A stretch of DNA of 38,108 bases, from assembly GCA_016207405.1 (NCBI GenBank), contig JACQPQ010000058.1, forward strand, positions 1 to 38,108. The letters are read 5' to 3'. This document shows positions 12,039 through 24,984 of the stretch, piece after piece. A model generated the notes under the pieces. It did no database searches. It was not told the DNA's origin and saw nothing but the letters and a program-made list of their open reading frames with translations. This DNA comes from Gammaproteobacteria bacterium (GTDB lineage Bacteria; Pseudomonadota; Gammaproteobacteria; JACQPQ01). The stretch's first letter is position 1, and the number at the start of each line of letters is the position of its first letter. The position numbers and the translations under genes are program-made.

Positions 12039-12512
12039 TTAATAAATTTTACAGTATCGTCGCCATCCTCGCAGCATAGAAAAAATGAGTGGCCAGAACA
12101 CAGCCCCTGTCACGCAGGGTAACCAATAAACCCATGTTTTGGGAGGATGCCTGAGGAACCCTTCTATCCAAAAGACAACGATTTGATACATAAGGAGTGG
12201 AGCTGTCATAGCGAGGGATGCCTGCCAGATGGGAAACATACGCAGTTGCTCGGCAAATCGAATGATGAAATAAGCGACGAGAATGAAGGCAATTGCTGAT
12301 TCTCCAAATAAGTTTCCCTGGAGACAGTCGTAAAAGATCCCAACTGTCCAAGCCGTAAAAAAACCTATTCGATGAGGAAAGGCGATGGTCCAGTAAATGA
12401 GAGTCAGCAAAATCCAAGGGGGTTCCAGTGTGCCGAGAAAAGAGGGGAGTGGCAGTAGGGTCACCCAGAAGGCTGCGAGGAAACTAAGTGCGATAGGGAA
12501 GAAGTGGGGCAT
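12039..12512 (-). CDS. mreD: Rod shape-determining membrane protein MreD
   Basis: MreD is the inner-membrane component of the elongasome that works with MreB, MreC, RodA and PBP2 in side-wall growth. The 157-aa protein (family about 160) is hydrophobic with five or six membrane segments and has the conserved IGFFTAWTVGIFYDCLQGNLFGESAIAF segment. It is third in mreBCD order. Its ATG directly follows three CCCCTAA-type heptamers and has no Shine-Dalgarno-like sequence on its strand, so it may depend on ribosomes ending mreC four bases upstream. Confidence 0.94.
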   Translation of the reverse strand: MPHFFPIALSFLAAFWVTLLPLPSFLGTLEPPWILLTLIYWTIAFPHRIGFFTAWTVGIFYDCLQGNLFGESAIAFILVAYFIIRFAEQLRMFPIWQASLAMTAPLLMYQIVVFWIEGFLRHPPKTWVYWLPCVTGAVFWPLIFSMLRGWRRYCKIY

Positions 12513-12533
12513 GGGGTTAGGGGTTAGGGGTTA
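12513..12533. repeat. Heptamer array (GGGGTTA)x3 at the mreC-mreD junction
   Basis: Three perfect GGGGTTA units on the plus strand (CCCCTAA-type TAACCCC on the coding strand) encode the last residues of MreC (TPNP) and its TAA stop, and extend to the base before the mreD start codon. Confidence 0.92.
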
Positions 12534-13341
12534 GTAGTAAAACGGGATGACTGCTTGCAAGTTTCGCAACCGGCTTCACTAAAATTTTAGCAAAAGGCTC
12601 TGTCTTGTCTTGCAGAATTTGCGTGACCGTACCTAAAGGATAGCCGGCTGGGAAAAGTTGTCCAAGGCCTGAAGTGACGATTAAGTCTCCAATGAGGATA
12701 TCGGTTGTGGAAGAGGAGGTGTATGCAACCAGCTCGTCAAGCTTTCCAGTTCCTTCCAGAATAAATCGAATGCCATTTCGGTTGACTTTAGCAGAGAGTG
12801 CATGACTTAAATCCGTAATGAGGAGGGCTGTACTGGACTCGGGTCTTACGGTTATGATTTGCCCCATCATCCCATAGGCATCTAGGAGAGGTTGACCAAC
12901 ATGCACCCCATCGTTTTGTCCTTTGTTCAGTATTATTTTGTGGGTGAAGGGATCGGGATCGACTCGGATGATCTCGGAGATCATTCCCTTCTTTGATTCT
13001 TCCGAAGGCTTAGATCCCAAAAGAGCGTGTAGATAATTATTTTCGGATTGAAGACTCGCTAATTTTTGGAGTTCCGTGTGGAGTTGGAAAAGCTCTTTTT
13101 TAAGTTCCGAATTTTCGTACCGGAGTGCTTTTTGTGTGACTAAAGTTTTTTGAAGGCTGGAAAACCCTTGGAGAGGCCAATGAACAGCATATTCAAGAGG
13201 AAGGAGTGCTTCTGATAAAAGGGTATGGACTCCTTTTAAAAGGGGCGTGCGATAATCCAGCCATAACACAAGAGATGAAAGCACAACGAATATTAAGAGC
13301 CGCGCTTCTAGAAACGACTGTTTTCGAAAGAGAGGTTTTAT
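12517..13341 (-). CDS. mreC: Rod shape-determining protein MreC, probable ATA start
   Basis: MreC is the bitopic scaffold of the elongasome. The protein has an N-terminal membrane helix, a coiled coil (heptad-like ALRYENSELKKELFQLHTELQKL), and the beta-barrel domain with DPDPFTHKIILNKGQNDGV, GMMGQI and LIVTSGLGQLFPAGYPLGTV. The first ordinary start codon, GTG 13284, would cut into the membrane helix and has no ribosome binding site. Reading upstream gives an open frame with ATA at 13341 encoding (M)KPLF, like the MKPIF start of E. coli MreC. AAAGGAG at 13355-13349 stands seven bases before it. I therefore take 13341 as start (274 aa). The C-terminus is short and ends in the heptamer array. 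Confidence 0.85.
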   Translation of the reverse strand: MKPLFRKQSFLEARLLIFVVLSSLVLWLDYRTPLLKGVHTLLSEALLPLEYAVHWPLQGFSSLQKTLVTQKALRYENSELKKELFQLHTELQKLASLQSENNYLHALLGSKPSEESKKGMISEIIRVDPDPFTHKIILNKGQNDGVHVGQPLLDAYGMMGQIITVRPESSTALLITDLSHALSAKVNRNGIRFILEGTGKLDELVAYTSSSTTDILIGDLIVTSGLGQLFPAGYPLGTVTQILQDKTEPFAKILVKPVAKLASSHPVLLLTPNP

Positions 13342-13364
13342 TGGACATCTCCTTTATTTCAACC

Positions 13365-14476
<1,112 letters not shown>

Positions 14477-24907: not shown

Positions 24908-24984
<77 letters not shown>

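Follow-up and report, generated by a model that had tools for sequence, protein, structure and literature searches.

In Escherichia coli, the AUU start codon of pcnB limits its expression. This is like the AUA, AUU or AUC start (here AUH, or ATH in DNA) that is considered below for mreC, but pcnB is a single gene in enterobacteria, and we know of no class-wide survey of its start. No report of a non-AUG start of mreC was found in the openly licensed full-text literature; a 2020 preprint by Gvozdjak and Samanta on genes preferring non-AUG starts, cited in PMC9845219, may list it. The infC gene of E. coli and Streptomyces is described as starting with AUU or AUC and as autoregulated, being repressed by IF3 (PMC5472188). 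As in mreC, the start of infC is a near-cognate isoleucine codon after a Shine-Dalgarno sequence, and infC of the source genome itself (L182:1246-1767; contig C46 of G000) starts with ATC, two codons past an in-frame TAG (TAG AAT ATC AGA GGA). The two genes differ in that the start of infC is part of an autoregulatory loop through IF3, whereas mreC encodes a wall-elongation scaffold, from which no such loop follows.

A second described case is sigR of Streptomyces, which has an IF3-repressed GTC start, and in which a canonical codon in place of the GTC leads to overproduction of SigR in relation to its partner; within the genus the start is GTC in 32 of 34 cases and GTT in the other two, with a very strong ribosome-binding site, AGGAGGTG (PMC5472188). 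As described there, sigR shares with mreC a conserved non-canonical start and a strong ribosome-binding site, and its start sets the ratio of two co-transcribed partners. The sigR case involves GTC or GTT, was demonstrated by experiment and concerns one genus, whereas that of mreC involves ATH, extends across a class and is known from sequence alone. It has also been reported that genes starting with GUG or UUG have stronger Shine-Dalgarno sequences than AUG genes (PMC5622118). The compensation seen in mreC is in the same direction, but that survey, as reported, took AUG, GUG and UUG, and the codons in mreC are AUA, AUU and AUC.

The locus is on the minus strand of the window, which is the whole 38,108-nucleotide stretch of DNA that was analysed. 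The upstream operon partner mreB (13365-14414) has an ATG start and a TAA stop at 13367-13365, and matches TIGR00904 with 523.5 bits and PF06723 with 481.3 bits. It is followed by mreC (12517-13341), with 274 codons from an ATA to the TAA at 12519-12517, and by mreD (12039-12512), which starts with ATG and matches TIGR03426 with 93.1 bits. The assignment of mreC is based on scores above the cut-off for both TIGR00219 (175.9 bits, cut-off 92.75, residues 5-272) and PF04085 (126.8 bits, cut-off 28) and on the gene order mreB-mreC-mreD. Three tandem CTAACCC units (12513-12534, minus strand) span the mreC stop as far as the mreD start. A search of the whole window against Rfam gave only a tRNA at 24908-24981, with no known structured RNA at the mreC start.

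In the mreC frame there is a TAA (13354-13356), then AGG AGA TGT CCA, then ATA AAA CCT CTC TTT (13341-13327), which encodes KPLF after the first codon; the N-terminus of MreC in E. coli K-12 is MKPIF. The in-frame TAA, four codons 5' of the ATA, rules out any start farther upstream in this frame. The sequence AAAGGAG (13349-13355) is separated by a 7-base spacer from the ATA (13339-13341), and the second codon is AAA (13336-13338). The first ATG, GTG or TTG in frame is the GTG at 13282-13284, 19 codons past the ATA and within the hydrophobic stretch LLIFVVLSSLVLWL, in the middle of the membrane helix, and is not the start. On re-reading the minus strand, the coordinates and anatomy given for the mreC 5' end in the preliminary description were found to be right, including the point that usual start codons are available only from this GTG, mid-helix and with no Shine-Dalgarno sequence. 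Its proposal that the ATA is the start of mreC is strongly supported by the upstream stop, the AAAGGAG, the onset of conservation and the excess of ATA described below. There is also an ATG at 13348-13346, in a different frame, which directly abuts the GGAG with zero spacer and opens a short overlapping frame.

The preliminary description had suggested that the mreC starts of relatives be aligned, and had described ATA and ATT starts as rare. Among 56 relatives, all from the same class (taken as Gammaproteobacteria, judged from the named relatives), mreC was found in 51, and in most of the 30 loci read the codon homologous to the ATA is itself ATA, ATT or ATC. Nothing nearer was found: the relatives search gave genomes of the same class only and a scan of genome contigs gave only three remote loci from Clostridia. 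In a draw of 370 genomes from the class, 339 matched, and only the best-scoring among these were fetched and joined with the earlier loci and E. coli. Five genome repeats (L039, L040, L042, L043, L046) and one locus cut before the N-terminus (L029) were removed from the 177 with a match to give a set of 171, which at no stage included L001 or the three loci from Clostridia. In these best-scoring loci the homologous codon is ATT in 44, ATC in 40, ATA in 29, ATG in 23, TTG in 2, GTG in 1 and another codon in 32, so that 113 of the 171 have AUH, in a set biased by a ranking profile built on 20 sequences, 19 of them with the odd codon.

An unranked sample of one genome per family, listed in full, comprised 104 genomes, with 96 matches, of which 91 could be scored (G024, G031, G035, G037 and G063 being cut or fragmentary). 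There are 53 families with AUH, nine with ATG, one each with GTG and TTG, and 27 with some other, non-canonical codon at that exact position, a group that includes some loci, left uncounted, in which an ATH codon lies at a distance of one to three codons. Far from being peculiar to the source genome, such a start is what mreC most often has in the class as sampled, which is to say that a start codon near-forbidden in textbooks is the most frequent one in a conserved gene needed for rod shape. A conserved AUH start is best explained as a class-wide feature of mreC, of which the ATA in the source genome is one instance. Outside the class but within the phylum, AUH is present at the extrapolated position in none of 20 loci, a weak comparison as these N-termini cannot be aligned with KPLF (the model match begins at positions 5-37).

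The distribution also bears on whether the ATA is an error of sequencing or assembly, either in place of a true ATG or through loss of a base that would have brought the ATG at 13348-13346 into frame. The presence of an out-of-frame ATG 7 bases 5' of the ATA would suit such an error, but this ATG would have no spacer after the GGAG, and an ATG is found out of frame and comparably close, at -11 to -1, in only two of the 113 AUH loci. With isoleucine codons at the same place in so many independent assemblies, across both the best-scoring loci and the families, an ATG-to-ATA error is unnecessary as an explanation and is extremely improbable.

Five independent signs in the sequences mark the AUH codon as the start of mreC, these being the lack of an upstream start, the onset of conservation, the Shine-Dalgarno sequence, weak structure and the excess of ATA. 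There is no ATG, GTG or TTG between the upstream in-frame stop and the AUH codon in 102 of the 113 AUH loci, and in 57 this interval is without even a CTG, ATH or ACG. Agreement of in-frame residues is 0.05-0.19 upstream and then rises abruptly, with I in all 113, K in 101, L in 91 and F in all 113. The mean Shine-Dalgarno duplex energy is -7.15 kcal/mol, against -2.42 in the in-gene background, and the base profile of the AUH loci has a classic G peak at -12 to -7, with which the AAAGGAG of the window agrees. Between -30 and +30 the sequence has weaker structure than windows inside the genes (-10.6 vs -15.5 kcal/mol). The second codon is for Lys or Asn, both starting with AA, in 110 of the 113, as is the AAA in the window. 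As expected of a gene with an AUH start, there is no compatible canonical start, the ribosome-binding site is properly spaced and conservation runs from the codon onward. In the same loci, canonical starts are present for mreB in 167 of 168 (three cut at the edge being left out) and for mreD in 170 of 170, no more than 8 codons from where they are expected.

The excess of ATA is pertinent to the suggestion that this codon is an ordinary internal isoleucine and that mreC starts farther upstream. There is an upstream in-frame canonical codon in 11 of the 113 AUH loci, and the annotation of mreC in Legionella adelaidensis begins at a GTG within mreB, as this suggestion would have it. Against it, only the four codons AGG AGA TGT CCA stand between the stop and the ATA in the window, the interval is three codons or fewer in 20 of the 113 loci, and the upstream residues are unconserved. 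ATA is at codon 1 in 29 of the 113 loci, about three times the 10.2 expected from the isoleucine usage of each gene (z 6.6), and in GC-rich genes it is found in 7 of 32 at codon 1 against 10 of 398 internal codons, which indicates that it is not decoded there as ordinary isoleucine. An internal isoleucine is accordingly most unlikely.

Annotation of the MreC N-terminus follows the canonical codons. In Pseudomonas aeruginosa CP123788.1 (L223:219-267) the mreC frame reads TAG GAG CGG ATC ATC AAA CCG CTA TTC, and the annotated CDS begins at a GTG (267), inside the membrane helix and 16 codons downstream of the ATC at 219. A paper on the structure of P. aeruginosa MreC (PMC8137920) numbers the residues in a way consistent with this truncated form, as fourteen residues from the GTG would reach the end of the helix. 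The use of the equivalent GTG in this record, together with the GTG at 13284 being the first canonical codon in frame, is what could be said for translation of the window's mreC from that GTG, as the annotator has it, giving an MreC 19 residues shorter. Such a start would have no Shine-Dalgarno sequence, would cut the membrane helix and would leave untranslated the K-x-L-F...R segment that is conserved as protein. In 96 of the 113 AUH loci, moreover, canonical codons are absent upstream and do not occur downstream before codon 12; the GTG is scarcely credible as the start. Start callers limited to ATG, GTG and TTG misplace the MreC N-terminus, and gene finders can miss the AUH start, so that a construct or tag designed on this basis may be without the conserved cytoplasmic segment and one half of the membrane helix.

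The strength of the Shine-Dalgarno sequence differs with the codon. Its mean is -3.84 in genes with ATG (n=32) and -7.25 in those with ATH (n=119), with values of -5 or lower in 13 of 32 and 108 of 119, respectively, and AA is present at +4,+5 in 18 of 32 ATG genes against 116 of 119 ATH genes. When relatedness is counted, the trade-off and the A at +4 are represented by only 6 independent pairs and are not significant (median p 0.5 and 1). The mreC genes of E. coli, Aeromonas caviae and Proteus mirabilis have an ATG with no ribosome-binding site, and that of Acinetobacter baumannii has a GTG at the annotated start. The AUG in E. coli means that an AUH codon is not indispensable. The occurrence within one gene of AUH with a strong ribosome-binding site and of AUG without one provides a natural comparison.

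Of 191 loci, 187 gave an MreB protein for a tree, on which the 151 loci with AUH or ATG were mapped. There are at least 8 switches between ATH and ATG, while the changes among ATA, ATT and ATC number 42 or more. The third base of the start codon has 50 changes, against a mean of 54 at conserved fourfold sites of mreB, but only 8 of these are to or from G, compared with 14-37 at 39 fourfold sites matched for G content. The ratio of changes crossing to or from G is 0.16, below the minimum of 0.27 among the matched sites; equally low ratios are seen at 13 of 96 fourfold sites, but G is at 1-5% in those and at 21% in the third base of the start codon. Taken with the evidence for the start, this pattern indicates that G is resisted and AUG avoided at the mreC start. 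By itself, avoidance of G would equally fit an internal isoleucine codon, and it is the stop, the Shine-Dalgarno sequence and the ATA excess that decide that point.

The start might be real and yet serve no regulation, if AUH behind a strong Shine-Dalgarno sequence and AUG behind a weak one are neutral alternatives and the former is kept by inertia. The trade-off between codon and Shine-Dalgarno strength would be in keeping with this, as would the fact that AUG lineages thrive. However, inertia would admit G about as often as silent sites do, which is not what the interchange among A, C and T shows, and neutrality is an unlikely explanation, if by some way the least unlikely of the alternatives considered. 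As in IF3-discriminated genes of the infC and sigR type, the odd codon has been kept instead of drifting to AUG, and it is preceded by a strong ribosome-binding site.

The preferred reading, which we hold to be probable, is that the ATA is the true start of mreC, read by initiator tRNA against discrimination by IF3, and that this holds MreC synthesis low. From the start role and the resistance to G, both evident in the sequences, we infer that the initiator fMet-tRNA would pair with AUH despite a mismatch at the third base, initiation being permitted by the strong Shine-Dalgarno sequence, the A at +4 and the weak local structure. IF3 would then destabilise the mismatched complex, giving a low, set rate of MreC synthesis from an mRNA shared with the abundant mreB. 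IF3 has been reported to disfavour weak third-base pairs in vitro (PMC10158994), and the IF3 of the source genome is intact (TIGR00168, 244.3 bits, model 5-170 of 170). IF3 discrimination and low MreC, which the preliminary description had suggested, would fit the published work on infC and sigR (PMC5472188) as well as the local anatomy. MreC overexpression in E. coli is described as making cells shorter and wider, partly offset by MreD, and MreC there is reported to be about twice as abundant as MreD and PBP2-RodA (PMC7793260); 'low' MreC would hold relative to MreB only. The lineages that shifted to AUG (Enterobacteriaceae, Proteus, Aeromonas) have mostly lost the Shine-Dalgarno sequence, by which low initiation may have been preserved by another route.

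A broader and decidedly tentative proposal is that, throughout the class, mreC belongs to a group of genes governed by IF3, and that its AUH is read only while IF3 is in short supply compared with the ribosomes that are initiating. The amount of MreC made might then track the state of the translation machinery, as might, by way of PBP2-RodA, the speed of wall elongation, and in AUG lineages of the E. coli type the absence of a Shine-Dalgarno sequence would have taken over as the brake. In any case, the mreC start connects the fidelity of initiation with cell shape in a way that can be tested directly.

Tight translational coupling was considered as a cause of the odd codon and set aside, as the gap between mreB and mreC in 112 AUH loci has a median of 76 bases and a first decile of 21, with zero overlaps, so that coupling is not required. 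In the ATH loci of mreC there is a C at -2 (0.63) and at -1 (0.59) at all GC levels, only somewhat higher than for mreB (0.40 and 0.41) and mreD (0.44 and 0.46). Two loci, L096 and L097, have GTT at the homologous mreC start (cggaggttcgcc GTT AAA CTG). In L096 an ATC is immediately 5' of the GTT, while in L097 there is no canonical or ATH codon nearby, which would suggest that GTT may itself be the start.
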